Positions 15,881 to 42,862 of a stretch of 64,000 nt of DNA are shown here, piece after piece. Every line of letters begins with the position of its first letter. Within the stretch, counting starts at the first letter, position 1. The position numbers and the translations under genes were made by a program. The stretch is from the NCBI RefSeq assembly GCF_013410405.1, contig NZ_JACCFK010000001.1, forward strand, positions 3,472,001-3,536,000. Direction: 5' to 3'. The stretch is from Amycolatopsis endophytica (GTDB taxonomy: Bacteria > Actinomycetota > Actinomycetes > Mycobacteriales > Pseudonocardiaceae). The notes below the pieces were generated by a model. The model did not search any database. It was not told where the DNA came from and saw nothing but the letters and a program-made list of their open reading frames with translations.

Positions 15881-15958
15881 GTTCCGGGCGGCGCACCCGG
15901 CAACGGGAAGTGACCAGCTCCGAACCAGTCCTCTCCCGCAACCCGATCCCCAGCCACA

Positions 15959-16022
15959 TCGGTTGCCGAGCAGTCGGGTCAAGGCACGCTTTCCCGCCTT
16001 GACGCGACTGCTCGGCAACCGA
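15959..16022. repeat. Long hairpin with conserved inner core, copy 1
   Basis: A 27-bp stem with one internal mismatch and a 10-nt loop. The inner stem is GTCAAGGC (15978-15985) with GCCTTGAC (15996-16003) around loop ACGCTTTCCC. The outer arms begin GGTTGCCGAGCAGTC. No U-run follows on either strand, so it is not a canonical terminator, although it lies between convergent genes. Confidence 0.85.
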
Positions 16023-16158
16023 ACACTGAGAGATCGGGTTCGGGAGGGGCCGATCGGGGCGTAGCGAAGCGAAGCCGGTGCTTGAGGTACCCGCGTAGCG
16101 ACCCTCGCTTCGGTCTCGCGCGGCCGCGCGCGGATTCCGTTAGCGCCATCCGGAAAGA

Positions 16159-16197
16159 AACCGGCCCGCGCGGGGAAAAACCCCACGCGGGCCGGTT
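16159..16197 (-). terminator. Hairpin terminator of PstS-like gene 3
   Basis: A 17-bp arm pair with one mismatch (left arm 16159-16175, right arm 16181-16197) around a 5-nt A/T loop. It starts 15 nt past the stop of the gene at 16213-17280 on the minus strand. Confidence 0.8.
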
Positions 16198-16212
16198 CCG
16201 GGGAGCAGTGGG

Positions 16213-17280
16213 TCAGGACAGGGTGCAGGTGACACCCGAGGTGCCCAGCGGCTGGAAACCGTAGTCGCTGATCAGGGTGTTCAGCGCGCCGGAGCAGAGG
16301 GGGCTCGGGCCGGACGCGTCGAAGCCGACGATGTTCAGCGCGGCGCCGTAGGAGAGCGAACGGGTGTCCAGGACGTGGTACACCGTGCGCGCGCCCCGGA
16401 AGGCAGGCAGGAACGTCGGCTCCCACTTGCCGGAGGTGGCGTTCACGCCCACCGGCGCGACGTCCGAGTCCGCACCGGTCAGGGTGCCCTCGAAGAAGCC
16501 CGCGCGCTTGTCCGTGACGACCGCGTTGGCCTGGGCGACCCACTGGGCCACCGAGTACGGCGCGATCGCGGTCCCGGCGTCACCTGCGGCGATGGTGGTG
16601 GCGTCGTTCTCCTGCATGCGGTGGATGGTGACACCGGTGGTGGTCGGGTCGAAGCCGAGGACGTTGCCGGTGAAGAAGGACAGCGTGCCCGAACCCGTCT
16701 GCGGCAGGTACACGGCGATCGGGGCGTCCGCGCCGCCGACCTCGCTCCAGTTGTCGATGGAGCCGTTGTAGATGCCCTTCAGCTGGTCCAGCGTCAGGGT
16801 GACGCCGGCACCGGCACCGGTCGACGAGGCGGCCCAGGACACGCCGTCGCGGGCGAAACCGTAGTACTCGAACTCGACCGGATCGCTGGAGCTCGGGCCG
16901 GACGACGAACGGGCGACGTCGATCAGCGCGCCGCCCGACGAGGCGTTGGCGTTCAGCGCGTTCTTGCCGGCCGACGAACCGTTGGGCACCGGGTTGCTGG
17001 TGGTGTCGTAGGTGGTGCCGCCGTCGTAGAGGTCCGCGGGGACCGTGAAGGTGCCGCCCGCCGGCAGCACCGGCGGCACGTTCACGTAGTTGTCCTCGCC
17101 GCCGTTCGCCTGGGCGAAGAGCGCGTTGGTGAAGTCCTGGATGGTGTCGGAACCGGCGGCGGTCACGACCTCGTTGAGGCCGTTGTCGCCGGGCACCGCG
17201 CTGGCGGTACCGGTGAGGAGCAGGCAGGCCCCGGTGGCGGCGCCGATGACGCCGGCAAACCGTGCGGTACGAGCACGCAT
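16213..17280 (-). CDS. Secreted PstS-like phosphate-binding protein (PstS-like 3)
   Basis: A 355-aa exported protein with a classical signal peptide (residues 1-29, ending GTASA). The mature protein starts with a TAAGSDTIQDFTNALF motif, as in PstS-type proteins, then ANASSGGALIDVARSSSGPS, LTLDQLKGIYNGSIDNWSEVGG and LPQTGSGTLSFFTGNVLGFD, which fit the phosphate-binding loops. It lacks the lipobox and the C-terminal span, so unlike PstS-like 1 and 2 it should be released or wall-trapped. It is monocistronic, with its own hairpin terminator, and faces the transglycosylase gene across the repeat element. Other oxyanions are possible ligands. Confidence 0.83.
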   Translation of the reverse strand: MRARTARFAGVIGAATGACLLLTGTASAVPGDNGLNEVVTAAGSDTIQDFTNALFAQANGGEDNYVNVPPVLPAGGTFTVPADLYDGGTTYDTTSNPVPNGSSAGKNALNANASSGGALIDVARSSSGPSSSDPVEFEYYGFARDGVSWAASSTGAGAGVTLTLDQLKGIYNGSIDNWSEVGGADAPIAVYLPQTGSGTLSFFTGNVLGFDPTTTGVTIHRMQENDATTIAAGDAGTAIAPYSVAQWVAQANAVVTDKRAGFFEGTLTGADSDVAPVGVNATSGKWEPTFLPAFRGARTVYHVLDTRSLSYGAALNIVGFDASGPSPLCSGALNTLISDYGFQPLGTSGVTCTLS

Positions 17281-17430
17281 AGTGTCAGTACTCTTTTCTG
17301 TCTGTTCTCGGCCGGGGGATTTCCGCGGCCGGGAACCAACTTCGCCGCCTTGGGCAACGTCTGGCGGTGCCTTGCCTTCTCGCCCGACGGCGTGGCGGTT
17401 AATGCCCGACGAACGCACGCAGCGTGCCCG

Positions 17431-17847
17431 TCATGGCGGGGAATCGAGCCGGTATTTCGCCCGCCAGTCCAGGATCCGTCCGTCACTGCCGGATTCCGCG
17501 GCGATCCCGACGGCCGCGACGAATCGTTCGTACCCCCGTTTGGCTTCGATCTTCCGGCCGTACGGGCGAGTCGCGGTGGCGATCGGCCCGGAACCGGAGT
17601 GCAGCACCCAGCGCCACTGGATCCCGTTGAGGTGCGTCAGATCCATGCGCGTCCGCGACAGGTTCCGGCACAGCCACTGGATGGCGGTCGCGCATTCGGT
17701 GCTGTCCCGGTAATCGACCACTCCCAGGCCGAGTGACACGTTGTTGCTGCCCAGCAGTCGCCAGCGGGTGCTTCCGTCGTGACCGCCGATGAGCTGGAAC
17801 CGCGGCGTCCGGACGTTACCCGGCCGGCGGTCGTCTGCGTTTTTCAT
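17431..17847 (-). CDS. YegP/DUF1508-like two-repeat protein
   Basis: A 138-aa protein with two related segments of about 45 residues: RFQLIGGHDGSTRWRLLGSN followed by LGLGVVDYRD, and RWVLHSGSGPIATATRPYG followed by RGYERFVAAV. This tandem pattern resembles the DUF1508 (YegP) fold, a small beta-rich domain of unknown role. ATG 17847 is preferred over the longer frame because the extension lacks coding character. No signal peptide. It is upstream of, and codirectional with, PstS-like 3 with a 150-bp gap, so it is probably independent. Confidence 0.55.
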   Translation of the reverse strand: MKNADDRRPGNVRTPRFQLIGGHDGSTRWRLLGSNNVSLGLGVVDYRDSTECATAIQWLCRNLSRTRMDLTHLNGIQWRWVLHSGSGPIATATRPYGRKIEAKRGYERFVAAVGIAAESGSDGRILDWRAKYRLDSPP

Positions 17848-18371
17848 TTGTGTGTCCCCAGTTCCACGGCCCGCCTCGGTGGCCGCTTCCGGTCGAAAAA
17901 TCACCGACGTCCTGCTATCGCGTCCATGCCCGGGTGGAGTTACGGCGCTGGGTTAAGGCGCGACGGCGGGAAGGTGAATGATCGGTTCTCCCCGCGCGTC
18001 ACCCGCGCCCGGCGGCTCCGCGTATTGCGGCCCGTTCGGGGTTTCGCCTACCATCGATTTTTCGGGCCGGGTCCGGAAATCGCGGCGGAGTTTACCGGCG
18101 ATGATTCGGGAGTTTGCGTGTTCTGGTACTGGAGCCGACGGTGATCCGAATTCTTTCACGGCACACGTTTGGCTCAGTGGGGGCGCGGTCGTTGCGGGCT
18201 CGTCACCGTGGATCAACCCTCGGTGACGTGCGGTGGCAGGCGGCGGGTGGCGCGATCCGGGCGGCTGGTCTGTTCGGGACCGCGACAGCGCCGTGTGGCA
18301 GCGGTTGGTCATCGGCGAGCGACTAAGCTGACGCGAAGCCCGGGTTCGTTACTACGCGATTTGGGGAGACC
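17848..18371. other. 524-bp intergenic region, no gene recognised
   Basis: This stretch is less GC-rich at wobble positions than its neighbours and every frame of more than 60 codons lacks normal actinobacterial codon bias. It should hold the promoters of the YegP-like gene (left) and the Uma2 gene (right). I see no RNA gene or clear operator. Confidence 0.6.
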
Positions 18372-18926
18372 ATGGCGACTGTCCCGGTGTTCGGACACCG
18401 CGAACCATTCACGCGTAGGGATCTGGAGTCGATCGCCGATGACGGTCACCGCTACGAGCTCGTGGACGGGGTGCTCCTGATGAGCCCCTCACCCCGTCCG
18501 CTGCACCAGCGTGTCGTGGCCAGGGTCCTCACCGCCGTCACCCGGAACTGCCCGAAGGACTGCGAGGCGTTGCCCGCGCCGGTGGACGTGGTCCTCGCCG
18601 ACGACACCGTGCTGATCCCCGACGTCGTGGTCGGGCGGCGCGGCGACTACACCGAACGTGCCCTGGTCGGCGTGCCGGTGCTGTCGGTCGAGGTGATCTC
18701 GCCGTCCAGCCGCCTGATCGACACCGAGCTGAAGCGGGCGCGCCTCGCGGTGGCCGGCTGTCCGAACTACTGGATCGTCGACCCGTATGTGCCCAGCGTC
18801 CTGTGCCTCGCGCTGCGCGAGGGCGCCTACTTCACGCTCGACGAAGCCGTGCGCGACGAGACGATCACGCTCACGGCTCCGTACGAGGTGGTTCTCAACC
18901 CGGCCGAGCTGGTCTCCGACTACTGA
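18372..18926 (+). CDS. Uma2 family (DUF820) PD-(D/E)XK nuclease-like protein
   Basis: A 184-aa member of the Uma2 family, a restriction-endonuclease fold common in multicellular bacteria. The core elements are present: RYELVDGVLLMSPSP (first acidic residue), LIPDVVVGRRG (PD motif), LSVEVISPSSRLIDTELKRA (E-x-I plus downstream Lys), and YWIVDP. GGGGAG lies before the ATG at 18372. The biological role of the family is unknown; it has been linked to mobile DNA. It faces the DUF6119 gene. Confidence 0.85.
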   Translation: MATVPVFGHREPFTRRDLESIADDGHRYELVDGVLLMSPSPRPLHQRVVARVLTAVTRNCPKDCEALPAPVDVVLADDTVLIPDVVVGRRGDYTERALVGVPVLSVEVISPSSRLIDTELKRARLAVAGCPNYWIVDPYVPSVLCLALREGAYFTLDEAVRDETITLTAPYEVVLNPAELVSDY

Positions 18927-18961
18927 CCGCTCTCCCGCTACGAGGATCCTCGTCCCGCTGT

Positions 18962-20587
18962 CTACGGGATCACGGTGACGCACAGGGGAATCCCGTACGT
19001 GTTCAGCGCGACCGCCGCCGACACCAGCGCGGAGCGCGCGAAGGTGAACAGCGTGCCGGGGTCGAGCGGTTTGTCCGGGCGGTGGATGGCGTAGACCAGT
19101 CCGGCGGGCCGGGACCCGAGCGCGGCGGCGCGAGCGGGGTCCTGTTCGGACACCAGACCGGTGAACCGCTGCCACGTCTGCCGGTCGGTGAGGCTTTCCA
19201 CCGCGACCAGCCCCTGCGCGAAGAGGTGGCTGAGCACCGGCGAACCGGTCCGGCGGCTGAACTTCTTCACGTGCACCAGCACGTTGCCCGGCCCGAGCAG
19301 ATCGCACGCCTCGAAGCCGTGCGGGTGGACGCGGGTGCGCAGGGTCCGGCGGTCCAGGCAGAGGAACCGCGGGTCGGTGCGTGCGACGTGCTCGTTGTAG
19401 GCGGCCTCGATGACGCGGCCGTCCCGGTCGCGTGGGGCGTCGTTCCACGGCGGCAGGGTCCACGGCGGGGTGTTCGCGAACGCGTCGGTGACCACGCGCT
19501 CGACGTGGTCGAGATAGCGGTCGCCGAGCTGGTACCAGTCGCCGTCGAGCAGCAGGTAACGGCCGTCGCGGTGGGTGATTTCGGCGGCGAGCCAGTGCAA
19601 CGCGGACACGTCACCGCCGAGGCTGTGGCCGCTGTCGTCGAGCCCCTCGATCGTGCCCGTGCGCAGCGCGGTGAGGCGGTGGCCATCCGCGGGCAGCCCG
19701 GCGCGCAGGTCGTCGAGGGTGAGGTCGTCGGTGTCGATCTCCCGTTCGCCCACGCGGCCCCGGTAGCGGGAGACGCCGGGGCCGTCGTGGTAGCGGGCGG
19801 GGTAGGCGATGCCGACCTCGCCGTCGCCGTCGTCCGGATCGGCCAGCAGGTCGGCGGCGGCGCCGTCCAGTTCGCCGGTCAGCTCGTGCCCCGCGCCGAG
19901 GCGCCGCACCCAGCGCAGCGGTTCGAGTCGTTCGTGCACCGGTCCCTCGGTGGTGACGCGGGTCAGTTCCCGCAGGTCGGACACCAGTGAGCTGCCCTCG
20001 GTGCCGAGGTGCAGGTGCAGTCCGTCGCCGCAGTCGAGGCTGAAACGGAAGTTGCGGTACCGGCCGCGGCGGCGGACGTAGGTCAGGTCGGCGCCGGCAC
20101 CCTCGTGCACGCGTCCGGTGAGGTTGCGGACCAGCTCGGCGTGCTCACGCAGGCCGAACGCCCACAGCCCCTGCCCGCCGGGCACCAGGTTCCGGTCCAC
20201 GCGGGCCTTCGCGCTCAGCGCCCAGCGGGTGATCCTGCGGATCTGGTCCGGGTCGAGCATGCGCACCGCGACGTCCAGGCCGAACCCGCGGTCGATCTTC
20301 TCGGTCCGCAGGTAGCGCCAGCCCTGCCCGAAGGTGAGCGCGTAGTGCGTGCCGTCGACGGCCAGCAGCAGCGCGGCCGACGGTGCCGCGCTGGTGTAAC
20401 CGAGGTCGACGCCGGTCAGCGAGCGGATGGCGGCGGTCCATTCGACCGGATCCGGATCGGGCGCGGCGGACACCAGCACGGCCGGTACCGAGTCCACGCG
20501 CACGTCCCGCACGTCGGCGGCGTCGAGCACCTTCGGCACGACCAGGTCGCGCGGATCCACGGCCGGGTACATCCGGTACACGCTCAT
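18962..20587 (-). CDS. DUF6119 family protein (TIGR04141 'sporadically distributed' type)
   Basis: A 541-aa protein of a family known for patchy distribution. Recognisable blocks: VDGTHYALTFGQGWRYLR, IDRGFGLDVAVRMLDPDQIR, WAFGLREHAELVRNLTGR, and C-terminal CDLLGPGNVLVHVKKFSRRT with SHLFAQGLVAVESL, where the His-Lys-Lys segment is a conserved possible active or binding site. ATG 20587 is chosen because the longer frame adds non-conserved residues. No membrane or signal segment. The function is not established; occurrence in mobile or defence-like settings is reported for the family. The Uma2 gene next to it fits an accessory locus. Confidence 0.75.
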   Translation of the reverse strand: MSVYRMYPAVDPRDLVVPKVLDAADVRDVRVDSVPAVLVSAAPDPDPVEWTAAIRSLTGVDLGYTSAAPSAALLLAVDGTHYALTFGQGWRYLRTEKIDRGFGLDVAVRMLDPDQIRRITRWALSAKARVDRNLVPGGQGLWAFGLREHAELVRNLTGRVHEGAGADLTYVRRRGRYRNFRFSLDCGDGLHLHLGTEGSSLVSDLRELTRVTTEGPVHERLEPLRWVRRLGAGHELTGELDGAAADLLADPDDGDGEVGIAYPARYHDGPGVSRYRGRVGEREIDTDDLTLDDLRAGLPADGHRLTALRTGTIEGLDDSGHSLGGDVSALHWLAAEITHRDGRYLLLDGDWYQLGDRYLDHVERVVTDAFANTPPWTLPPWNDAPRDRDGRVIEAAYNEHVARTDPRFLCLDRRTLRTRVHPHGFEACDLLGPGNVLVHVKKFSRRTGSPVLSHLFAQGLVAVESLTDRQTWQRFTGLVSEQDPARAAALGSRPAGLVYAIHRPDKPLDPGTLFTFARSALVSAAVALNTYGIPLCVTVIP

Positions 20588-20674
20588 CCGGCGCGTCGGC
20601 TCGTGGATCACAGTCCACCGATAACAACCCGGCGGGTGCGGGACCAGATCCACGGCGAGGAATTGCGCCGGACG

Positions 20675-21358
20675 TCACCCTCCGTTCGCCGAATCCCCCT
20701 GTTCGCCGCGCAGGCTCGGCAGGCCCGCGGCGAGCGCGCGCAGCATCCGTTTCGCGACGGGGACGAACTCGAAGCACAGCGCCGCGACCGCCGCGTCCTC
20801 GGCGTAGAGCCGGGCCAGCACGGGTGGCGGGTGTGCCGCGGGATAGAGCAGTCCGGCGAAACCCGCGGCCGCGGCGACCAGTTCGCCCGCTTCGTCCCCG
20901 GTCAGGTCCGGACGCGCCTGCGCCACGGCCGCCGAGATCTTCGCGAAGCTGCCGGCGGTCTGCAGCTTGAACGCGCGGGCCGCCTCCATGGTGGCGTTGC
21001 GCTCCAGCGTGGTCGCGCTGTGGCTGAGCAGGTCGCAGAACAGCGGGCGCTCGTCGAGGGTCTCGACCAGTGCGTCGAGCACGGACTCCGGACCGGGCGC
21101 GACGGCGACGCGGGCCACGGCCGCGGCCTCCCAGCCGCGGAACTCCTCGGCGGCCAGTTCGAGGAAGATCTCCTCGCGGGTGGCGAAGTAGCGGGCGAGG
21201 TTGGACTTGACGAGCCCGACCGCGGCCGCGACACCGCCCAGGCTCACCGTGCGCACCCCGTCCCGGAGCGCCAGCTCACGCGCGGCGGCGAGGATCGCCT
21301 CGCGCCGCTGCTGCTTGTGCTCGGGGCTGCGCGCCCGCAGGAACGCTTTGTGGGACAT
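20675..21358 (-). CDS. TetR family transcriptional regulator
   Basis: A 227-aa regulator with an N-terminal helix-turn-helix at residues about 18-64 (REAILAAARELALRDG through VKSNLARYFATREEIF) and a helical ligand-binding C-terminus. It is divergent from the paoABC-type operon, and a 33-bp imperfect palindrome lies between the two starts, so it very likely represses the operon. The inducer may be an aldehyde or N-heterocycle handled by the enzyme; that is inference. Confidence 0.88.
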   Translation of the reverse strand: MSHKAFLRARSPEHKQQRREAILAAARELALRDGVRTVSLGGVAAAVGLVKSNLARYFATREEIFLELAAEEFRGWEAAAVARVAVAPGPESVLDALVETLDERPLFCDLLSHSATTLERNATMEAARAFKLQTAGSFAKISAAVAQARPDLTGDEAGELVAAAAGFAGLLYPAAHPPPVLARLYAEDAAVAALCFEFVPVAKRMLRALAAGLPSLRGEQGDSANGG

Positions 21359-21389
21359 CAGCTCGTGATTCTATAACCTCAAGATAAGA

Positions 21390-21422
21390 GTACGTCGTTC
21401 TCTTGTTAAGAGGACGGCGTAC
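21390..21422. promoter_or_regulatory. 33-bp palindromic operator between tetR-type gene and oxidase operon
   Basis: Left arm GTACGTCGTTCTCTT (21390-21404) and right arm AAGAGGACGGCGTAC (21408-21422) are inverted repeats matching at 13 of 15 positions around a 3-nt centre. The length and symmetry fit a TetR dimer pair. It lies 32 nt from the regulator start and 43 nt from the first oxidase gene. Confidence 0.7.
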
Positions 21423-21464
21423 TGCTAGCTTCGGTGTGACACGGGCCGGACCGGGAGGAACCAG

Positions 21465-21950
21465 ATGGTCGAGGTGTCATTGCGGGTCAACGGATCCGAG
21501 CGAAGACTGGACGTGCCGCCCCAGGTGAGCCTGCTCGACGCGCTGCGCGAGCGGATGGGGCTGACCGGCACGAAGAAGGGCTGCGACCAGGGCGCGTGTG
21601 GCGCGTGCACGGTGCTGGCCGACGGCGAGCGCATCAACTCCTGCCTGGCGCTGGCCGTGCAGTACGACGGGCGCGAGATCACCACCGTCGAGGGGCTCGA
21701 TGACCCGCCGCAGGAGGCGTTCGTGCGCGCCGACGGGCTCCAGTGCGGATACTGCACGCCGGGTCAGCTGTGCTCGGCCGTCGGGATGCTGGCCGAGCAC
21801 AAGGACGGGACGCCGAGCGCGGTCACCGAGGACCTGACCGCCACCGCCGAGCTGACCGAGGACGAGATCCGTGAACGGATGAGCGGCAACCTGTGCCGCT
21901 GCGGCGCCTACAACGGCATCGTCGAGGCGATCCGGGAGGTCGCGGAATGA
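21465..21950 (+). CDS. Aldehyde/xanthine oxidase-type [2Fe-2S] subunit (PaoA-like)
   Basis: A 161-aa electron-transfer subunit. The plant-type cluster site is GCDQGACGACTVLADG with a further Cys in RINSC, and the second cluster site is GLQCGYCTPGQLC plus NLCRCGAYNG. It has no Tat signal, unlike E. coli PaoA, so the enzyme should be cytoplasmic. The ATG at 21465 follows GGGAGGA. It overlaps the next gene by 4 nt. Confidence 0.9.
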   Translation: MVEVSLRVNGSERRLDVPPQVSLLDALRERMGLTGTKKGCDQGACGACTVLADGERINSCLALAVQYDGREITTVEGLDDPPQEAFVRADGLQCGYCTPGQLCSAVGMLAEHKDGTPSAVTEDLTATAELTEDEIRERMSGNLCRCGAYNGIVEAIREVAE

Positions 21951-22942
21951 GGTCGTTCACCTACGTCAGCGCCCGGGACGTCCGCGGCGCGCTGGAGGCC
22001 GTCGCGGGTGACGGCGACGCGAAGTTCCTGGGCGGCGGCACGAACCTGGTCGACCTGATGCGCGAGGGCATCGAAACCCCGGGCACGGTCGTCGACGTCA
22101 GCAGGCTGCCGCTGACCGGGGTCGAGGAGCTGCCCGGCGGCGGCATCCGGATCGGCGCGCTGGTGCGCAACAGCCGCCTGGCCGCGCATCCGGTGATCCG
22201 GGCCCGCTACCCGGTGCTCGCGCACGCGATCCTGCACGGCGCGTCGGCCCAGCTGCGCAACATGGCCACCGTCGGCGGGAACCTGATGCAGCGCACCCGC
22301 TGCCTGTACTTCTACGACGACGCGTCGCCGTGCAACAAGCGCGTGCCCGGCAGCGGGTGCGGCGCGATGGACGGATTCGCCCGCTCCACCGCGGTGCTGG
22401 GCGTCAGCGAGCACTGCATCGCCACGCACCCCTCGGACATGGCCGTCGCGCTCGCGATGCTGGACGCCGTCGTCGAGGTCGAGAGCACCCGCGGCATCCG
22501 GCGCATCCCGATCGCGGAGTTCCCTCTGCTGCCCGGCGACACCCCGCACCGCGAAACCGCGCTGGAGCCCGACGAGCTGATCACGGCCGTCGAACTGCCG
22601 CCCGTGGAGGTCGCCCGGAACTCGCGCTACCGCAAGGTCCGCGACCGCGCGTCCTACGCCTTCGCGCTCGTTTCGGTCGCCGCGGCCCTGCGGGTCGAGG
22701 ACGGTGTGATCGTCGAAGCGCGCCTGGCCCTGGGCGGTGTGGGCACGAAGCCGTGGCGCGCGACCGAGGCCGAGCGGCTGCTACCCGGTCGGCCAGCGAC
22801 CGACGAGACGTTCGCGCGTGCCGCCGAGGCCGAACTGTCGGCGGCGGTCACCCGCCCGTCGAACGCGTTCAAGGTCGGCCTGGCGAACCGCACGATCGTC
22901 GCCACACTGCGGCGACTCGCGACCGAGGGAGGCGCGGCATGA
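21947..22942 (+). CDS. Aldehyde oxidase FAD-binding subunit with extra Fe-S cysteines (PaoB-like)
   Basis: A 331-aa FAD subunit of the CO-dehydrogenase flavoprotein family. FLGGGTNLVDLM and TVGGNLMQRTRC mark the FAD site. Between them and the C-terminal domain is a Cys-rich insert (RCLYFYDDASPCNKRVPGSGC, then EHC), as in PaoB, where it binds a [4Fe-4S] cluster. This insert separates PaoABC-type enzymes from ordinary xanthine dehydrogenases. Overlaps both neighbours by 4 nt. Confidence 0.9.
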   Translation: MRSFTYVSARDVRGALEAVAGDGDAKFLGGGTNLVDLMREGIETPGTVVDVSRLPLTGVEELPGGGIRIGALVRNSRLAAHPVIRARYPVLAHAILHGASAQLRNMATVGGNLMQRTRCLYFYDDASPCNKRVPGSGCGAMDGFARSTAVLGVSEHCIATHPSDMAVALAMLDAVVEVESTRGIRRIPIAEFPLLPGDTPHRETALEPDELITAVELPPVEVARNSRYRKVRDRASYAFALVSVAAALRVEDGVIVEARLALGGVGTKPWRATEAERLLPGRPATDETFARAAEAELSAAVTRPSNAFKVGLANRTIVATLRRLATEGGAA

Positions 22943-25119: not shown

Positions 25120-25122
25120 GCG

Positions 25123-25154
25123 CGGTGCCGGGTGCCCGCGGGCACCCGGCACCG
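25123..25154. terminator. Perfect 32-bp palindrome, bidirectional terminator
   Basis: A perfect GC-only-cored palindrome (arms of 16 bp, centre between 25138 and 25139) begins 4 nt after the oxidase operon stop and ends 13 nt before the lectin gene stop on the other strand. It suits both convergent transcripts. Confidence 0.8.
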
Positions 25155-25166
25155 GGGGCCGGACGG

Positions 25167-25781
25167 TCAGAACCACCACTGGTTCTGCGCGCCGGCCACG
25201 TAGTCCCACAGCTGCACGACGGTGCCGTTGCGGTAGGCCGTGTTGAGGTCCGCGTCCAGGTAGCGGCCGCCGCGCACGTTCTGCAGCCGCAGGTAGCCCT
25301 CGGGGATCTCGGTGAGGGCGAACCACTGGTTGCTGCCACCGGCCATGTAGTCCCACAGCTGGATCTTCGTGCCGTTGCCGTTGATCGTGTTCAGGTCGGC
25401 GTCGAGGTACCGGCCGCTGTACACGTTCTGGAAACGGTAGTAGCCCTCGGGGATCAGCGTGAGGTACCACGCCTGGTTGGCGGCGTAGGCGTCACAGTCC
25501 CACAGCTGGACCTTGGTGCCGTTGCCGCCGATGGTGTTCAGGTCGGCGTCGAGGCAGCGGCCCGGATCGTTGGCCGGGCCGATCAGGAATGCCTCCTGGT
25601 CGGCGTGCAGGTCGATGCCGCCGGGCTTGACCGGGTGGGCAGGCCGCAGGACGAGCCCGCCGAGGCTGGTCACCTCGGTACCGTTGGGCTGGTCGGCCGC
25701 GCTCGCCGACGGGGCGACGAACAGCGTCAGGAGCCCGGCCAGCAGTGCCGCGGCCGCGAACGGCCGCTTGAGTCTTCTCAT
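25167..25781 (-). CDS. Secreted ricin B-type lectin domain protein
   Basis: A 204-aa exported protein: signal peptide at residues 1-28 (ending PSASA), a 40-residue lead, and a beta-trefoil of three repeats. Each carries RCLDADLNT or RYLDADLNT, then NGTKVQLWD-type and NQWW/NQAWY motifs (QxW). The lead contains no catalytic domain, so it is a lone carbohydrate-binding module protein. Near-identity of repeats 2 and 3 suggests recent internal duplication. Sugar target unknown. Confidence 0.85.
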   Translation of the reverse strand: MRRLKRPFAAAALLAGLLTLFVAPSASAADQPNGTEVTSLGGLVLRPAHPVKPGGIDLHADQEAFLIGPANDPGRCLDADLNTIGGNGTKVQLWDCDAYAANQAWYLTLIPEGYYRFQNVYSGRYLDADLNTINGNGTKIQLWDYMAGGSNQWFALTEIPEGYLRLQNVRGGRYLDADLNTAYRNGTVVQLWDYVAGAQNQWWF

Positions 25782-25962
25782 CGAGTCCCCATCTCAGTGG
25801 CGGGGCGCGGTTTCCTCACGCCGCACCCCGGGGAAAAGATCTTCCCCATGTGGCGGGCCGTGCGTCGAGGACTTTTCCGCCTCCGGCAACAACGCTGTTC
25901 AATGCTGTAACGGACTGGCATCGCCCGCGATCTTCCTGGTGTCCCCACGGAAAGGATCGCCG

Positions 25963-26898: not shown

Positions 26899-26938
26899 AC
26901 GAGCCCCCGGCGCAAGGGCAGCGGCGCCGGGGGCTCGT
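26899..26938. terminator. Hairpin terminator between convergent arsR-type and actP-type genes
   Basis: A perfect 15-bp stem (26899-26913 with 26924-26938) around a 10-nt loop directly follows the regulator stop and ends 12 nt before the symporter stop, so it can serve both strands. Confidence 0.8.
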
Positions 26939-26949
26939 CGAGAAGGCTC

Positions 26950-28880: not shown

Positions 28881-28958
28881 TTGAGGACCTCCTTGTCGTG
28901 TGGTGGCGGACACGTTAGGAGGTCACGGCGCCCGGTGACGAACGGTCCCGACCAACCG

Positions 28959-32859: not shown

Positions 32860-32909
32860 CGACCGCGATGAGTGCCGGTCGATAGTACGGGGCGCGCCCG
32901 CGTATCTCT

Positions 32910-34094: not shown

Positions 34095-34101
34095 GATCGC
34101 G

Positions 34102-34132
34102 ACCGTAGGACCTCTAGCTAACTGTAGGTCAA
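34102..34132 (-). promoter_or_regulatory. MerR/SoxR-type promoter with 19-bp spacer
   Basis: On the minus strand TTGACC (34132-34127) and TACGGT (34107-34102) are separated by 19 bp, the abnormal spacing of MerR-activated promoters. Between them is a dyad, ACCTACAGTTAGCTAGAGGT (34129-34110), close to the SoxR-box pattern ACCT-x2-AGTTA-x-CT-x2-AGGT. The dyad ends 15 nt before the MFS start codon. Confidence 0.72.
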
Positions 34133-34248
34133 GCGGTGGTTTCGTTGCGAGGGAACGTGATCGGGCCGGAGGCACCAACCGGCACGGCATGGCAGCGCCG
34201 GACCCGGCGCAGGGGTTTCCGGTCTCGCCGGCCAGGGAATCCACCGAC

Positions 34249-35709: not shown

Positions 35710-36162
35710 CTACTCGCGCCGGTCCGGAGATGTCGGCCAGGGGAGCACGGTGAGTGCCGGCCACTGCTCCCGCCAGCGGGCGGTCTTGGTTTCGTAGACG
35801 TGCCCGGGCGCCAGGAGCGGGTTCGGGCGCACGACAAGACCGAAGACGTCGGCCAGGCCGTGCGGGGCGTAGACGCGCCAGCGCTGTCCCGGCTCCGCCC
35901 GGATGCCGACGCAGCAGGTGGTGGCGGCGAACGAGTCGATTGCCGCCTCCGTGGACGGGTGCGGCGCGCACCGCACCCCGAACTTCTGTTCATACCAGAG
36001 GTGGACGCGCGCTTCGTTGCGGATTTCCACGGTCGCCGGGACGTCGGCGAACACGGCCCGGCCGGGCTGGACGACGGCGTCCTCCGCTTCCCGCGACAGG
36101 TCGGAGGCGTCGAAGTAGCACAGGTCGTAGTCGAGGATGCCCTCCTCCGCGGGCCTGGTTCA
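35710..36162 (-). pseudogene. Nucleotidyltransferase-family protein (DUF925-like), 5'-truncated
   Basis: The open reading frame continues upstream of its first possible start codon into recognisable protein, TRPAEEGILDYDLCYFDASD, and then meets an in-frame TGA at about 36163. Intact members of this family have about 50 more N-terminal residues with the conserved WNxLTG segment just before this point. The rest is well preserved: EVRIRNEARVHLWYE-like segment, ctd FGVRCAPHPSTEAAIDSFAATT and WRVYAPHGLADVFGLVVRPNP. So the gene lost its 5' end. A short product from GTG 36054 is possible but would lack the acidic catalytic motif region. Confidence 0.75.
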
Positions 36163-36222
36163 TGACCGCACCCTACTGCTCACCGGTGCTCTCCCGACCG
36201 CACACGCCCGTACGATCGGCCC

Positions 36223-36918
36223 ATGGTGCCGGAAGAGATCGCCGTCCCCTCCGCGGCCGCTGTCGTGCTGGCCAGTGGCGCCGGCACGCGCGTCGGGGCG
36301 GGGGTGAACAAGGTGTACCTTCCGCTGGCGGGCCGGCCGGTCGTCTGGTGGTCGCTGGATGCTTTCGCCCGCACGCCCGGCATCGCGCCGCTCGTGTTCG
36401 TCATCCGCCCGCAGGACCGGGGACTCGCCGACGACGTCCTCGCCTCCCTCGACGTGCCCGTGGAGATCGTGCACGGCGGGGCCAGCAGGCAGGAGTCCGA
36501 GCTGAACGCGTTGCGGCACTTGGCGGCGCGGGCCGAGGCGGGCGAGGTCGACACCGTCCTCGTGCACGACGGTGCCCGTCCGCTCGTCACGCCACCCCTG
36601 ATCACCGAGGTCACGCGCGTGGCCCGCGAGCACGGCGGCGCCATGCCGGGACTCCAGGCGGACGACATCGTCACGGCCGAGGGCGCTCGTCCGGCAGGGA
36701 GGCTGGTCCGCGCGCAGACGCCGCAGGCATTCCGCGCCGCGCCGCTGCTCGCCGCCTACGAGGAAGCCGCGCGCGAGGGCTTCGCGGGTACCGACACCGC
36801 GTCGGTGATGGAGCGCTTTTCCGCCCTGCCCGTGCACTGGGTGCCCGGCGCGCCGGAGAACATCAAGGTCACCTACCCGCACGACCTCCTGGTCGCGGCC
36901 CAGATTCTGGCCGGCTGA
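36223..36918 (+). CDS. IspD/TarI-family cytidylyltransferase (2-C-methyl-D-erythritol 4-phosphate cytidylyltransferase-like)
   Basis: A 231-aa nucleotidyltransferase: VVLASGAGTRVGAGVNKVYLPLAGRPVVWW (residues 15-44) is the CTP-binding signature, GGASRQESELNAL and VLVHDGARPLVTP follow, then TPQAFRAAPLLAAY and GTDTASVMERF. IspD makes CDP-methylerythritol in isoprenoid synthesis. It is unusual that ispF and carD are not adjacent, and the N-terminal signature is GAGVNK rather than the common xPK form, so this may be a second, paralogous cytidylyltransferase. Its last 50 nt overlap the convergent IclR gene. Confidence 0.8.
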   Translation: MVPEEIAVPSAAAVVLASGAGTRVGAGVNKVYLPLAGRPVVWWSLDAFARTPGIAPLVFVIRPQDRGLADDVLASLDVPVEIVHGGASRQESELNALRHLAARAEAGEVDTVLVHDGARPLVTPPLITEVTRVAREHGGAMPGLQADDIVTAEGARPAGRLVRAQTPQAFRAAPLLAAYEEAAREGFAGTDTASVMERFSALPVHWVPGAPENIKVTYPHDLLVAAQILAG

Positions 36919-37690
36919 CCTCGGCGCGCTGCCGCAGGGTGGTGGTCAGCGCATGGGCCTCCTTGAGCAGCAGCGCGCCCATCTGCGAGCGGCGCGGCTC
37001 GCGGAAGCGGGACTCGACGCCCGTCAGCGTCAGGGCCCACGCCGGTTCGCCCGCCGCGCCGAACACCGCGGCCGCCATGCCCCAGCTGCCCTCGACGACC
37101 AGACCCGGATTGACGGAGTACCCGCGTTCGCGCGTCTCGGCGATCCGCTCCCGCAACGGCTCCGGCCCGTGCTCGGCTCCCCAGCGCTCGGTCAGGTCGA
37201 CCCGCGCCAGGTACTCGTCGATCTCCCGGTCGCCGAGCAGGGACAGCACGACCAGGCCGGCCGAGACCACGCCGAGCGGGAACCGCGCGCCTTCGTAGAG
37301 CACGAACGACCGGATGGGGAAGTCGCCGTCCTCACGCAGCAGGCACACCGTTTCGTCGCCACGGCGGGCGGAGAAGAACGCGCTCTCCCCGGTCGCGGCC
37401 GCGAGCCGGTGCACGCTGTCCCGCGCCTGCTGGGTGACGTCGTAGCGCGCGGCCGCGGACTCGCCCAGCAGGTACAGCTCCGGGCCCAGGTACCACTGCC
37501 CGGAGCGCTGGTCGCGGTCGACGAACCCCTCGTCGGCCAGCGCGGCGAGCAGGCGGTGGGCCGTCGGGCGCGCGAGACCGGTCGCCCGTGCCACGTCCGA
37601 GGTCGACGCGCCCGGTTCTCCCGTCACGGACAACGCACGCAGCACCAGCGCGGCGCGGCCGATCAGGTTGTCGGTTGGCATGGCACCCAT
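36869..37690 (-). CDS. IclR family transcriptional regulator
   Basis: A 273-aa regulator: winged helix at residues about 10-70 (GASTSDVARATGLARPTAHRLLAALADEGFV) and an IclR effector domain at about 85-250 (VCLLREDGDFPIRSFVLYEGARFPLGVVSAGL). Divergent from the CoA-transferase genes with palindromes between, so it probably regulates them, like PcaR/PobR for beta-ketoadipate genes. ATG 37690 or 37681. Confidence 0.88.
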   Translation of the reverse strand: MGAMPTDNLIGRAALVLRALSVTGEPGASTSDVARATGLARPTAHRLLAALADEGFVDRDQRSGQWYLGPELYLLGESAAARYDVTQQARDSVHRLAAATGESAFFSARRGDETVCLLREDGDFPIRSFVLYEGARFPLGVVSAGLVVLSLLGDREIDEYLARVDLTERWGAEHGPEPLRERIAETRERGYSVNPGLVVEGSWGMAAAVFGAAGEPAWALTLTGVESRFREPRRSQMGALLLKEAHALTTTLRQRAEVSRPESGPRPGGRAGR

Positions 37691-37705
37691 CGTACGTCCA
37701 CTCAG

Positions 37706-37802
37706 TGAACGCGTTCATCGCACTCGTTCATCTGGCGAGAGATCGAAGCACGCTGCTTGACCGTGTTTGCGCAGGTCGTCTTGACTGGTGACCAAGTGGT
37801 CA
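37706..37802. promoter_or_regulatory. Candidate IclR operators upstream of CoA-transferase operon
   Basis: TGAACGCGTTCA (37706-37717) is a perfect 12-bp palindrome 16 nt from the regulator start, with a further CGTTCA half-site at 37725-37730. TGACCAAGTGGTCA (37789-37802) is a second dyad with perfect 6-bp arms, 27 nt before scoA. Either could be the IclR site; the assignment is inference. Confidence 0.5.
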
Positions 37803-37829
37803 TCAGACGGACGCTCGAAGGAGAGTTAC

Positions 37830-38546
37830 GTGTCCAAGGTGTTCGGCACAGCCGCCGACGCGATGGCAGGCGCGCTGCGGGACGGCATCACGATCGCGGT
37901 CGGCGGCTTCGGCCTCAGCGGTGTCCCCTACGACCTCATCGAGATCGTCCGCGACTCCGGGATCCGCGATCTGACGATCGTGTCGAACAACATGGGCGTC
38001 GACGGCAAGGGCCTCGGCCTGCTGCTGGAGAACAAGCAGGTCCGCAAGGTGGTCGCGTCCTACGTCGGCGAGAACAAGCTGTTCGCGCAGCAGTACCTCG
38101 ACGGCACGGTCGAGGTCGAGTTCGCGCCGCAGGGCACGCTGGCCGAGCGGATGCGCGCCGGCGGCGCCGGGATTCCCGCCTTCTACACCAAGACCGGTGT
38201 CGGCACACCCATCGCCGAAGGCAAGCCGCACGCCGAGTTCGACGGCGTGACTTTCGTGCAGGAACGGGGAATCGTGGCCGATCTCGCCCTGGTGCACGCG
38301 CACACCGCCGACCACGAGGGCAACCTCGTGTACCGGATGACCTCGCGCAACTTCAACCCCGTCATCGCCACCTGCGGGCGCGTGACCGTGGTGGAGGCCG
38401 AGGTGCTCCTCGACGGCTTCGTCGACCCCGATCTGGTGATCACGCCCGGTGTGTTCGTCGACCGGCTGGTGGTCGCGACGCCGCGGGAGAAGGAGATCGA
38501 GAAGCGCACGGTGCGCCAGCGGGCGCTCGCCGGAACGGAGGCGTGA
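37830..38546 (+). CDS. scoA: 3-oxoacid CoA-transferase subunit A
   Basis: A 238-aa subunit A of succinyl-CoA:3-ketoacid CoA-transferase (or PcaI of 3-oxoadipate CoA-transferase). [36 protein letters not shown] and [17 protein letters not shown] [21 protein letters not shown] identify it. GTG 37830 has GAAGGAG at optimal spacing; an upstream ATG at 37788 does not. Regulated probably by the divergent IclR protein. Confidence 0.9.
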
Positions 38547-38548
38547 CC

Positions 38549-39190
<642 letters not shown>

Positions 39191-39210
39191 CGGTGCCGGT
39201 CTGACGTCAG

Positions 39211-39496
39211 CTACCGGCGCCAGATGAGCGGGCTGCCGTCGTAGTCGTTGCCGTCGTACCTGGCGGCGACCACGGTGTCGCCCGCGACGAGGGCGTCGAG
39301 CTGCGGGCCGTTTCCTGGTGCCGTAGTCCGAGCCGCTGAGGTTCTCCACGGGACAGCGGGTGCAGAACGGGGTCGGGCCCCGCGCCTGGTCGCCGAACGC
39401 GGTGTCGAACTCGGTCTGGTTCGCCTGCCTGTCCGAATCGGACCCACCGCGGCCGCTGCGAAAGAAGGTCGTCCACACTTCATGCCGGATGCTCAC
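39211..39496 (-). pseudogene. Small protein gene interrupted by a single-base frameshift, family not recognised
   Basis: Two frames with good third-position GC join at about 39310. The first (from ATG 39496) reads ...TPFCTRCPVENLSGSDYG; the second reads NGPQLDALVAGDTVVAARY...SPLIWRR and stops at 39211. Removing one A from the AAA at the junction joins them into about 94 aa with GTRNGPQLDA across the join. I do not recognise the family. It may be a sequencing error or a real broken gene. Confidence 0.5.
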
Positions 39497-39584
39497 CGGA
39501 GCGCCGGATACCGCGGGAAGATGGTGCGATCCCGCTCACGGTGACGGCCCGGTTCGGGTGAGATTGCCGTCGGGGCGGCACCGT

Positions 39585-40553
39585 TCACCGCGCGGGGCCG
39601 GCCGGAACCTCTCGTCGCTGGAACGCCGACCGGTAGGAGTTCGGGCTGGTGCCGACCACGCGGCGGAAACCGTCGCGGAACGCGGTCGGTGAGCCGAATC
39701 CGACCTGGCCCGCGATGCGGTCCACCGGGTGCGTGGTCGTCTCCAGCAGGTACTGCGCCCGCCGGATCCGTTCGCGGTGCAGCCAGCGCAGCGGCGTCGT
39801 CCCGGTGTGCTCGCGGAACCGGCGGTTGAGCGAACGCGTGCTGAGCCCGGCGCGCGCCGCGATGTCGGCGAGTGCCAGATCGCGGTCGAGGTGGTCGGAC
39901 ATCCACCGCAGCACCGGTTCCAGCGTCGACCCGCGCGGCACGGGCGGCTGGTCGTGCACGATGAACTGCGCCTGGCCGCCCTCCCGTTCCAGCGGCATGA
40001 CCGACAGCCGCGCGGCGTCGGCCGCCACGGCGGACCCGTGGTCGCGACGGATGAGGTGCAGGCACAGGTCCAGTCCGGCCGCCGCGCCGGCCGAGGTGAG
40101 GAACTGGCCGTTGTCGACGTAGAGGACGTCCGGGTCGACCTCGACCTCCGGGTACCGGCGGGCGAGCACGTCCGCGCCGAGCCAGTGCGTCGTGGCGCGC
40201 AGCCCGTCGAGCAGCCCGGTGGCGGCGAGGACGAACGCACCCGTGCAGATCGAGGCGAGGCGCGTGCCGTTCGCGGCGGCCTTGCGCAGGGCGTCGAGCA
40301 CATCCTCCGGGATTCCCGCCGCCGGGTCCGCGCAGCCGGGCAGGATGATCGTGTCCGCGTCGGTGAGTGCTTCGAGCCCCCAGTCCGCCTGGATCTTGAA
40401 GGTGCCCGCGTCGACGGTCGGCGTCGGCGCACACACCCGCACCCGGTAGGCGGGACGGCCGCCGGGCAGGCGGGTTCGGGTGAAGACTTCGATCGGGGTG
40501 GCCAGGTCGAACGGGACGACCTGGTCCAGTGCCAGCACGGCGACGATGTGCAT
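39585..40553 (-). CDS. GlxA-type AraC family regulator with DJ-1/PfpI domain
   Basis: A 322-aa regulator. Residues 1-185 form a DJ-1/PfpI-like domain (VAVLALDQVVPFDLATPIEVF, LPGCADPA, SICTGAFVLAATGLLDG with the nucleophile-elbow Cys). Residues about 215-315 are an AraC helix-turn-helix (LALADIAARAGLSTRSLNRRFREHTG; RIAGQVGFGSPTAFRDGFRRVVG). ATG 40553 starts the conserved core. Divergent neighbour is a small membrane protein gene, a possible target. Confidence 0.9.
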   Translation of the reverse strand: MHIVAVLALDQVVPFDLATPIEVFTRTRLPGGRPAYRVRVCAPTPTVDAGTFKIQADWGLEALTDADTIILPGCADPAAGIPEDVLDALRKAAANGTRLASICTGAFVLAATGLLDGLRATTHWLGADVLARRYPEVEVDPDVLYVDNGQFLTSAGAAAGLDLCLHLIRRDHGSAVAADAARLSVMPLEREGGQAQFIVHDQPPVPRGSTLEPVLRWMSDHLDRDLALADIAARAGLSTRSLNRRFREHTGTTPLRWLHRERIRRAQYLLETTTHPVDRIAGQVGFGSPTAFRDGFRRVVGTSPNSYRSAFQRREVPAGPAR

Positions 40554-40696
40554 GACGACACCGTAGGCCCTCGCCACCCCTGCCGACCACGGGATGTGGC
40601 GTGAAATGCCTGGTCGCGGCGGTTGGCGAGAATCCGTTGGAAGATGGCCATCCTGCCGGTTTTCCCGGTCGCCGGAGACCGTTAGCGTTTCGGCGC

Positions 40697-41155
40697 GTGA
40701 CGAAGGTTCTCCTCTCCCTCCATGTGCTCGCGGCGTTGATCGCGATCGGCCCGGTGACCGTCGCGGCCAGCATGTTCCCCTCGGCGACCCGCCGTGCCGC
40801 GGATGGCGCCGACCGCGAAGTCGCCGTCCTGCGCACACTGCACCGCATCTGCCGGGTCTACGCCGCGATCGGCGTCGCCGTCCCGGTTTTCGGTTTCGCG
40901 ACGGCCGGAGTTCTCGGCGTGACGGGCGACGCGTGGGTCGTGGTGTCCATTGTGCTCACCGGGATCGCGGCGGCCGTGCTGGTGCTCGTCGTGCTGCCGC
41001 GTCAGCAGGGAATCCTCGACGGCATCGGCGAGGGAACCGAACCGGGCCCGCGCGCCCCCGCGCGGCTGGCGATGTACACCGGGATCTTCAACATCCTCTG
41101 GGCGGCCGTCACGGTTCTGATGATCGTCCGCCCAGGCTCGACCACCAGCGCTTAG
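40697..41155 (+). CDS. Four-span integral membrane protein (DUF2269-like)
   Basis: A 152-aa membrane protein with spans at about 5-28, 55-75, 80-102 and 128-147. The LSLHVLAALIAIGPVTVAASMFP start resembles DUF2269-type proteins, which have a conserved His in the first helix. GTG 40697 is used; no good ribosome site is visible. Ends overlap the convergent DUF6194 gene by 4 nt. Function unknown. Confidence 0.65.
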   Translation: MTKVLLSLHVLAALIAIGPVTVAASMFPSATRRAADGADREVAVLRTLHRICRVYAAIGVAVPVFGFATAGVLGVTGDAWVVVSIVLTGIAAAVLVLVVLPRQQGILDGIGEGTEPGPRAPARLAMYTGIFNILWAAVTVLMIVRPGSTTSA

Positions 41156-41577
41156 GACGTGGCCGCGCGGCGGTTCGCGTGCTTGCGTGCCGCGAGTTCG
41201 TGGGCCTCCGCCAGCAGCGGGGCGATGCCGTCCAGGCCCGCCGGGTCCACGACACACGCCCAGCTCCGCGACGCGTGGACCGGATGGGGCATCAGGACAT
41301 CGCGGGCGGTGTGGTCGACCTCGCTCGTGGCGTCACCGAAACGGGACCGGTACGTGGCCTCCATCAGGCCGATGTCGAGCCGGAACGAGCCACGCCGAGC
41401 GAGGTCGGAGGCCGAGTCGTGGCTGTCGCTGGTCAGGAGCGCCGCGAAGGGGAACATCCGCTCGGCTGGCAGGTCGTCGTGCGGGTCGTACACGAAGAAG
41501 GTGTCACCGGCGCTCTGCACGGGGCTGACCCCGGCGAACGTGTCGCAGATATAGCGCTTGACCTCGTCGGCATGCAC
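41152..41577 (-). CDS. DUF6194 family protein
   Basis: A 141-aa protein whose pattern (FVYDPHDDLPAERMFPFAALLTSDSHD; FRLDIGLMEATYRSRFG; DVLMPHPVHASRSWACVVDP) matches a family of unknown function common in actinomycetes. The conserved D-P, H-P and W suggest a ligand-binding fold, but no activity is known. Soluble, no signal peptide. Confidence 0.75.
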   Translation of the reverse strand: MHADEVKRYICDTFAGVSPVQSAGDTFFVYDPHDDLPAERMFPFAALLTSDSHDSASDLARRGSFRLDIGLMEATYRSRFGDATSEVDHTARDVLMPHPVHASRSWACVVDPAGLDGIAPLLAEAHELAARKHANRRAATS

Positions 41578-41620
41578 ACGCCAACCCTAACCGCCTGCCG
41601 GGTTTGCCCGGAAGGGTTCC

Positions 41621-41980
41621 TCAGCGGGTCACTTCGCGTGCTTCGTCGAGGGACGTGGTGACGTTCAGGATGCGGTCGAGACCGGTCATCTCCAGCGGCC
41701 TGGCGACGACCGGGGTGGGGCAGACCAGTGCGAGCGACTGGTCGGCGGAGTGGCATTCGGCGGCAGCCTCCACGAGGACGGCCAGCCCCACCGAGTCGAG
41801 GTGCTCGACGTCGGACAGGTCGATGATGAGGCTGGTCAGCGGGACCGGGGCGGTGCTGTCGCGTGCGTCCTTGACGGACTCGCGGACCTGGGGCGCGGTG
41901 CCGAGGTCGACGTCGCCCGCGATGGCGACGATCGCTTCGCTCCCCTCGCGCGTCCACCGGGTGGCGAAGGGCTGCGCCAC
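41621..41980 (-). CDS. STAS domain anti-sigma factor antagonist
   Basis: A 119-aa STAS protein: IVAIAGDVDLGTAPQVRESV and LIIDLSDVEHLDSVGLAVLVEA, with the phosphorylatable Ser in HLDSVGL. Such proteins bind an RsbW-type kinase/anti-sigma factor when unphosphorylated. The GTG at 41980 follows TTGGAGG at 4-5 nt. It is 98 nt downstream of a degenerate RsbW-like gene on the same strand. Confidence 0.85.
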   Translation of the reverse strand: MAQPFATRWTREGSEAIVAIAGDVDLGTAPQVRESVKDARDSTAPVPLTSLIIDLSDVEHLDSVGLAVLVEAAAECHSADQSLALVCPTPVVARPLEMTGLDRILNVTTSLDEAREVTR

Positions 41981-42078
41981 GAATCCTCCAACGTCGTCCT
42001 GCTTTTCGGCCGTCGACCACCCTATCGGCCGTCGCCGGTGGCCCGGGTCCGGACCACCGGCGACCGGGTTCAGGCCGG

Positions 42079-42510
42079 CTACCGCCTGGCCGATCCGGCG
42101 ACGTGCACCGCGTCGAGCGCCGGTTTGTCCGGCACCGACGGTGCGGCGATCGCCACGTCGGCCCACAGTGCGGTCTCGCCAGGTCGGGGCGTCATCCCCC
42201 ACCTGGCGGCGACCCCGTCCAGGACAGCCGCCGACGTGGCGATCTCGCGACGCCCGGGTGGCTCCGCGGTGATCGTCACGTCCACGCGGACCGTGTCCGT
42301 GCCCGCCCAGCCCAACCGCACCGTGAACGGCTGGCGGGTGGACAGCCAGGCGATGCTGGCGATCTCGTCGGTCACCAGCAGCGCGTCGACGACGTGCTGT
42401 TCGCCGACCCCGGCGAGCATGACCCGCGCCCGCCTCCGCAGGGCCGCCAGTTCTCGCGGCCCGTCCACGACACTGGTGAACCGATCCGGCCGATGCACCA
42501 TGGCATCCAC
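42079..42510 (-). CDS. RsbW-like histidine-kinase-fold protein with lost ATP-binding motifs
   Basis: A 143-aa protein aligning with actinobacterial anti-sigma ATPases: N-terminal RELAALRRRARVMLAGVGEQHVVDALLVTDEIASIAWL and C-terminal RLGWAGTDTVRVDVT, RWGMTPRPGETALWADV. In active relatives the N box reads E-L-V-T-N-A; here it is E49-I-A-S-I53-A, with Asn replaced by Ile. No DxGxG G1 box is present. It should bind nucleotide poorly or not at all. GTG 42510 has GGAGGAGG 9 nt upstream; ATG 42501 is an alternative. Likely partner of the STAS protein downstream. Confidence 0.72.
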   Translation of the reverse strand: MDAMVHRPDRFTSVVDGPRELAALRRRARVMLAGVGEQHVVDALLVTDEIASIAWLSTRQPFTVRLGWAGTDTVRVDVTITAEPPGRREIATSAAVLDGVAARWGMTPRPGETALWADVAIAAPSVPDKPALDAVHVAGSARR

Positions 42511-42697
42511 GATGCACCACCTCCTCCGTCGACTCGTCAACGCGAGGATCTTGGGTTTACCCGGCCGTGATCGTTCCAAACCGGTCCACTGAGGAGTCCG
42601 AGTATGTAAGCGCTACGCGGGTTGTTGCGCTGCGCGAGGCTGAAAGCGCCGGGCTCGCAAGCTCGCAATAGGTTGGGACGCCCCGATTTTTCATTGT

Positions 42698-42765
42698 TTC
42701 TCCGGCCGATCAGGCGGAGTCAAGGCGGGACAGCGTGCCTTGACTCCGCCTGATCGTCCGGAGAA
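42698..42765. repeat. Long hairpin with conserved inner core, copy 2
   Basis: A 29-bp stem with one mismatch and a 10-nt loop GGGACAGCGT (42727-42736). The inner 8 bp and the loop equal copy 1 read on the other strand except one base, while the outer arms (TTCTCCGGCCGATCAGGCGGA) have no similarity to copy 1 but pair perfectly with each other bar one position. Confidence 0.85.
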
Positions 42766-42862
42766 CTGGGCTGGGGATCGGGGTGCGGGGGAGGGCTGGG
42801 CGGCCTGGTGGCTGGGTTGCGTTGCCGGGCGGCGATGTGGTGGCTGGGTGGTGTCCCGGAGG

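Follow-up and report, generated by a model that had tools for sequence, protein, structure and literature searches.

Two distant hairpins in Amycolatopsis endophytica as copies of a polar interspersed Pseudonocardiaceae element that may be copied through a folded single strand

Among intergenic repeats, ERIC, BOX and Correia/NEMIS are imperfect palindromes, roughly 100-150 bp long and in some cases mosaic, and the attC sites of integrons are marked by RYYYAAC/GTTRRRY boxes and an integron integrase. According to an excerpt of one account (PMC3733652), repetitive extragenic palindromes (REP) and bacterial interspersed mosaic elements (BIME), tagged GTAG or CGTC, are palindromes of 20-40 bp with many intergenic copies and paired copies. 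Their sites are mostly convergent or co-directional, and the CGTC repeats lack a dedicated transposase. Here we describe an element of about 130 nt in Amycolatopsis endophytica (assembly GCF_013410405.1, 7.2 Mb, G000 in our numbering). It is alike ERIC, BOX and Correia/NEMIS in being an intergenic imperfect palindrome and differs from them in taxa and sequences. Two of its copies lie in the window, a stretch of 64,000 nt (contig NZ_JACCFK010000001.1, positions 3,472,001-3,536,000, forward strand). Judging the chances to be about even, we propose that they belong to a polar, non-coding interspersed element of the Pseudonocardiaceae, REP-like and copied through a folded single strand.

An earlier note on this window had described two hairpins (15959-16022 and 42698-42765), and both are present in the sequence. 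Each core is an inner stem around a 10-nt loop, GTCAAGGC-N10-GCCTTGAC being common to the two copies, and 25 of the 26 positions agree when the second copy is read on the minus strand, as the note had counted. Arms and core extend as it described, and the fold is larger than it supposed, each hairpin being enclosed by an outer helix (Table 1). Both copies fold far better than shuffled sequences (z -7.3 to -12.1, as DNA or RNA and on either strand). The window alone is weak evidence, because window shuffles searched with up to three mismatches hold a mean of 0.37 core matches and 8 of 100 reach two. Genome-wide, the exact core occurs at 20 places and the core with up to three mismatches at 65, against 0 for a reversed-pattern control in both cases. 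The loop is directional, reading ACKCTTTCCC on one strand in 58 of these 65 places, a list chosen by similarity to such sequence. A second main core type among the 65, GTCAAGGT...GCCTTGAC, makes a G·T pair, and a third, GTCAAGCC...GGCTTGAC, makes a compensated pair. Above 70 bits, a covariance model matches 70 places in the genome; contig 1 holds 58 of them and contig 2 the other 12. Of the 15 weaker matches that we read (L070-L084), 13 have lost the core through differing deletions. L072, L074, L075 and L076 are relics missing the hairpin tip, again with deletions that differ.

The outer arms had been called unrelated in the note, which considered, among other readings, a mobile palindromic element that acquires new arms. 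In fact, the 5' arms of the window copies agree at 11 of 18 aligned positions in an alignment of 48 copies (from 52 diverse chosen ones), and common conserved outer stretches as well as intermediate copies link both arm types. The alignment comprises one family with several subfamilies, and the window arms look unrelated because the two copies belong to different subfamilies. Thus, the arms are diverged variants of one family, and they covary strongly. Changes on both sides occur in 16 of the 28 predicted pairs. With a structure derived from the tested sequences, and a relatedness of copies that persists despite shuffling, pairing cells amount to 98.0% (82.4% in shuffles), double-change cells to 203 (58.9) and the covariation score to 0.448 (0.163), values reached by 0 of 500 shuffles. 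Coarser measures are weaker: 16 double-change pairs against 13.4 (reached by 9 of 500 shuffles) and 35 further pair types against 32.6 (49 of 500). All slid registers fail the covariation test. The single mismatch of copy 1 is a G·G adjoining the core, a mismatch present in 93 of 177 copies, and copy 2 has its own at C·T, which reads A·G when the minus strand is taken. The note's idea that structure is kept in the arms and sequence in the core is borne out.

Imperfect pairs reveal which strand is kept foldable, because each G·T pair turns into A·C when the opposite strand is read. We paired the arms with equal scores for both and limited the count to 19 arm positions, in place of a wider count that reached past the arms and took in the A/C-rich internal loop (GT 219, AC 291). 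Among 177 distinct elements, G·T/T·G outnumber A·C/C·A by 171 to 9; dropping the innermost pair, which the search pattern favours, leaves 99 against 9. Counted by distinct contexts, innermost pair included, the figures are 40 and 8. Thus, the ability to fold is preserved on just one of the two strands. The direction of the neighbouring genes makes no difference to this bias in the own genome, with 44 G·T against 1 A·C at convergent sites, 12 against 0 in copies that run against or away from their neighbours (-E-, -E+), 10 against 1 in those that run with them, and 19 against 2 over all classes for contexts in at most two loci, and host transcription direction is therefore not its source. The near-perfect inverted repeats might have suggested a protein-bound duplex cruciform, one of the readings that the note offered. 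However, both strands of a cruciform fold, and G·T and A·C should then be equally frequent, which makes us regard it as highly improbable. The other two readings of the note, a mobile palindromic element and an RNA, stand, and we favour the mobile element because of the spread over many loci, the common ends of copies in relatives and the homogenisation of copies within genomes. The same imbalance bears on a reading in which the palindromes are old and functionless, intrastrand template switching (quasipalindrome correction) keeping them perfect and gene conversion spreading them: template switching should be strand-blind, and 99 against 9 is not what it predicts. More generally, the comparison of G·T with A·C pairs, and of GNA with TNC loops, separates single-strand elements from duplex palindromes by sequence.

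The apex of the element adds to this picture. In some genomes (G008, G014, G018 and others) the 10-nt loop between GTCAAG and CTTGAC is replaced by mini-hairpins, mostly three, which form a cloverleaf. In the 22 of 29 cloverleaf loci that were parsed (7 were left out), we counted 55 mini-hairpin loops in 19 distinct apices, and 48 of the 55 are C-G-closed GNA loops (GAA 34, GCA 12, GTA 1, GGA 1). The stems differ between apices; the G and the A of the loop are constant. Mini-hairpins also lie 3' of the 65 own copies, where GNA loops outnumber TNC loops by 38 to 1 (distinct: 9 to 1), against 8 GNA and 11 TNC on the 5' side and 21 and 20 in the whole window. Strand polarity and GNA loops together point to a fold that works as one strand, ssDNA (single-stranded DNA) or RNA, not as a duplex cruciform. 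DNA mini-hairpins with GNA or GNNA loops are extraordinarily stable according to an excerpt of PMC4686876, and because of these loops ssDNA is the better guess.

These observations also frame a possible, if doubtful, alternative, namely a multi-copy structured RNA whose plus strand is transcribed, whose fold binds a protein or acts in trans, and whose copies would multiply through duplication and conversion from time to time. It would suit the strand polarity with its G-U pairs, the conservation of the internal and apical loops, and the double changes in 16 of 28 pairs. Against this, polarity is unchanged in copies that run against or away from neighbouring genes, and thus does not come from host transcription; no promoter-like conserved upstream stretch was seen by eye; and the GNA triloops are, in the excerpt cited above, a feature of stable DNA mini-hairpins. 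Nor does any Rfam family reach its cut-off over the element: there were 0 matches at cut-off in the window and 0 in eight loci, and among the 16 matches found at E<=1 in 15 loci only a tRNA off the element reached it, the others being sub-threshold hairpin matches.

The note's reading would have been refuted if these two loci were the only ones, or if the arms elsewhere were not self-complementary. Instead, the core was found at many loci and in many genomes of the Pseudonocardiaceae, and genome-wide the arms pair and covary. Our scans scored part of the candidates in each genome (11, 83, 132 or 150), so that the counts for relatives are minimum values and a genome without a match is negative only provisionally. 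Read in this way, the element is present in 15 of 19 genomes of the genus at E<=1e-8, the own genome included, with weaker matches in G014 (E 1.5e-7), and in 0 of 22 genomes outside the genus at the same threshold. At E<=1e-6 it occurs in 80 of 297 genomes and 15 of 46 genera of the family, the own genome included. In a phylum sample it was found in the own genome and in 0 of 295 others. Exact cores also come from Actinokineospora and Halosaccharopolyspora (among the 80 of 119 stretches listed), and the core recurs between genera with few changes, again unlike what functionless palindromes would predict. No match was found in plasmids and phages with a 129-base blastn query, or in viral contigs with the exact pattern. 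In G017, 29 of the 30 element places listed fall at 3.38-8.26 Mb of contig C1 (8.68 Mb).

The copies examined sit between predicted genes (called with our own codon-usage script). Their sites are mostly convergent (38 of 65); 13 are co-directional with the element running against the genes, 9 co-directional with it running along them, 4 divergent and 1 not assigned. This preference, with only 4 divergent sites, might suggest a cis-acting 3'-end element, that is, a terminator or mRNA stabiliser of convergent genes, which we think unlikely. Co-directional copies lie against the genes as readily as with them (13 vs 9), copy 2 of the window stands between divergent genes, and at one shared site a T-tailed hairpin, probably the gene's own terminator, precedes the element. 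The note had already considered simple termination unlikely, and the sequence read directly agrees, with no T-run after the stem at either window copy; we see no sign of the element terminating its neighbours. Four copy pairs on contig 1 lie within 420 bp, each head to head, and one pair on contig 2 runs in the same direction. Within 330 bases, the motif GTGTTKGCC of a 21-bp array accompanies 32 of the 65 copies, always on the 5' side and never on the 3' side. The 21-bp arrays are an independent dispersed repeat; they are also abundant in G012, a genome with one strong element match, and occur in G001, where no element match was found.

How far does the element extend? When copies of the own genome are matched with one another, 522 of 1657 matches have their left end at -90 to -80 of the core, where these ends cluster, and many copies carry other 3' modules. 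In the relatives G017, G010 and G005, many copies open a unit of about 460 bp, closed at its far end by a second giant hairpin. Left ends, in the 25 best matches among the copies of these relatives, fall 28-53 bases before the model start in 23 and 93 before it in 2, and right ends 413-474 bases past it in 15. The base of hairpin II coincides with this long right end, and the motif GGGATGACCACCCAGC lies 413-456 bases past the model start in 15 of 20 copies. Examples of the second giant hairpin, with arms of about 60 nt, lie at L128:1440-2070, L135:1290-1990 and L201:2340-2950, and in these three loci the stretch between the hairpins, AAAGATCAAAAGA..GTCCTCGCCGGAC, seems by eye to be highly conserved. 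L135 (about 1369-1469) and L027, upstream of its hairpin, show tandem duplications of the element's 5' leader.

Copies within a genome resemble each other more than their positional counterparts elsewhere. All 14 ortholog comparisons, which cover 12 elements at 11 sites, set the best of 64 own copies against one ortholog, and in each the own-genome copy is closer (91-98.5% identical) than the ortholog (61-85%). The best of 25 relatives' copies is also lower (64-86%), and the flanks are 69-93% identical, mostly above 81%. Copies are therefore rewritten in place or replaced at preferred sites. Such genome-wise homogenisation, together with the varied internal deletions of the tip, is what the functionless palindromes described above would also give; C-GNA-G loops on varying stems are not predicted by them, and we consider that reading improbable. 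Eight of the 20 loci from G017, G010 and G005 have flanks in common with a site of the element in the own genome; for one of the eight the identity is only 69%. Orientation at shared sites, some of whose flanks are 69-72% identical and may be paralogs, is the same in 13 of 16 single-copy cases and opposite in 3, and one further site is a pair with both. For L006/L007, L012, L014, L032, L057 and L060, one or more relatives showed no exact-type core around the mapped place; some of these loci mapped outside the fetched stretch. L207/L210 was considered as an empty-site pair and set aside, its flanks being too diverged (68-76%) for placing the insertion. A Mutator-family transposase gene (L169:1570-2922) adjoins an element copy and is absent at the matching site L220.

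To explain these results we favour an element copied through a folded strand. One strand is kept able to fold into a long hairpin that has an outer helix and a conserved internal loop, with arms that covary and a core that is fixed. The element may spread, or get rewritten in place, via this single strand in its folded form and always with the same polarity, and ssDNA is the likelier material, given the GNA loops. A candidate enzyme acting in trans would work on the folded strand, so that the mode of working may resemble that of a very large REP/BIME. Several points weigh against this view. Copies share descent and many changes are inherited within subfamilies, and the polarity counts are not independent; moreover, polarity cannot tell ssDNA from RNA. 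Ten of the 25 best matches between relatives' copies end earlier (5 at 175-181 and 5 at 257-341), and the long unit is therefore not universal. No target-site duplication is evident by eye in the 15 of 20 copies that have both ends visible, and no clean empty site was found. The kept orientation fits in-place conversion of old copies equally well as new insertion. No flanking gene recurs, the largest clusters comprising 4 loci and generic families; in low-copy genomes no flanking gene family is common to more than two loci. Finally, the mobilising enzymes that we searched for do not follow the element. RAYT/Y1 (PF01797) occurs in 1 of 19 genomes of the genus only, G011, itself without an element match. 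Y2 was not found in the own genome, and element-rich G002, G007 and G017 gave weak matches (21.7-23.8 bits, cut-off 20.9), which sit in frames of about 1300 aa; control genomes likewise gave no Y2 signal. Reverse transcriptase (RT, PF00078), present in 8 of 19 genomes, is absent from the own genome and from 10 of 18 others, among them the element-bearing G003, G005, G008, G010, G013, G016 and G017. Thus, in the own genome no searched enzyme (RAYT, RT, Y2) tracks the element. A group II intron or other retroelement was rejected, as G000 has no reverse transcriptase.

The comparison with REP/BIME (PMC3733652, in excerpt) is nevertheless close in several respects: many copies, intergenic positions, a preference for convergent or co-directional sites (38 + 22 of 65) and paired copies. 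In contrast, the element measures about 130 nt, or about 460 bp as the unit of many relatives' copies, against 20-40 bp. It has a two-helix fold with a conserved internal loop, is restricted to Pseudonocardiaceae in the samples scanned and comes without RAYT. Unlike REP, it carries no constant GTAG or CGTC tag. Four windows were compared where the helices of the 65 copies end: the commonest tags are CTAC (26) and GTAG (14), both in the 3' outer window, and no window holds more than 3 CGTC or 12 GACG. Because the tests of size, tag and RAYT failed, we do not file it as REP. Like an integron attC site, a hairpin that is recognised as folded ssDNA with one strand strongly preferred (compare PMC6393395), it seems to act as one strand; unlike an integron, no cassette array was seen, attC boxes and integrase not having been searched for. 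Our literature searches on such repeats or structured RNAs turned up no description of it. Hence a large repeat family in an antibiotic-producing group has no name that we could find in the literature or in Rfam. We tentatively envision a new type of bacterial mobile element. It would travel, or be rewritten, in the form of a folded DNA strand, would carry giant hairpins at both ends and, in some species, a cloverleaf apex of GNA mini-hairpins, and would be recognised by a host enzyme other than the known Y1, Y2 or RT mobilisers. Should the enzyme that copies it prove to be new, single-strand DNA mobility would gain a further class beside REP/RAYT and integrons.

Table 1. Positions of the two element copies, their parts and adjoining repeats in the window
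Feature	Positions	Strand	Basis
Copy 1, element (hairpin I and outer helix, about 130 nt)	15926-16054	+	covariance model R1, 132.5 bits, E 1.2e-28
Copy 1, hairpin (core and outer arms)	15959-16022	+	sequence, DNA fold
Copy 1, core: inner stem GTCAAGGC/GCCTTGAC, 10-nt loop ACGCTTTCCC	15978-16003	+	pattern search
Copy 1, outer helix, 5' strand (partner 16032-16049)	15930-15948	+	DNA fold
Copy 1, outer helix, 3' strand (partner 15930-15948)	16032-16049	+	DNA fold
Copy 1, 5' leader motif CCGGCAACG, near left boundary of repeat	15897-15905	+	sequence
21-bp tandem array (GTGTTTGCCG type), separate repeat 5' of copy 1	15757-15893		tandem-repeat analysis
Copy 2, element (hairpin I and outer helix)	42666-42798	-	covariance model R1, 124.7 bits, E 7.3e-27
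Copy 2, hairpin (core and outer arms)	42698-42765	-	sequence, DNA fold
Copy 2, core, minus-strand loop ACGCTGTCCC	42719-42744	-	pattern search
Copy 2, outer helix, 5' strand (partner 42681-42687)	42777-42783	-	DNA fold
Copy 2, outer helix, 3' strand (partner 42777-42783)	42681-42687	-	DNA fold
Copy 2, 5' leader motif CCGGCAACG	42820-42828	-	sequence
21-bp tandem array 5' of copy 2	42884-43031		tandem-repeat analysis

In the window, copy 1 occupies a convergent site with an SLT-domain gene and a PBP-like gene on either side, and copy 2, at its divergent site, adjoins an MFS transporter gene. Elsewhere in the window, a 147-bp tandem repeat (2.6 copies) lies inside a predicted gene at 25175-25562, and intergenic tandem repeats of 25 bp and 19 bp occur at 50810-51019.

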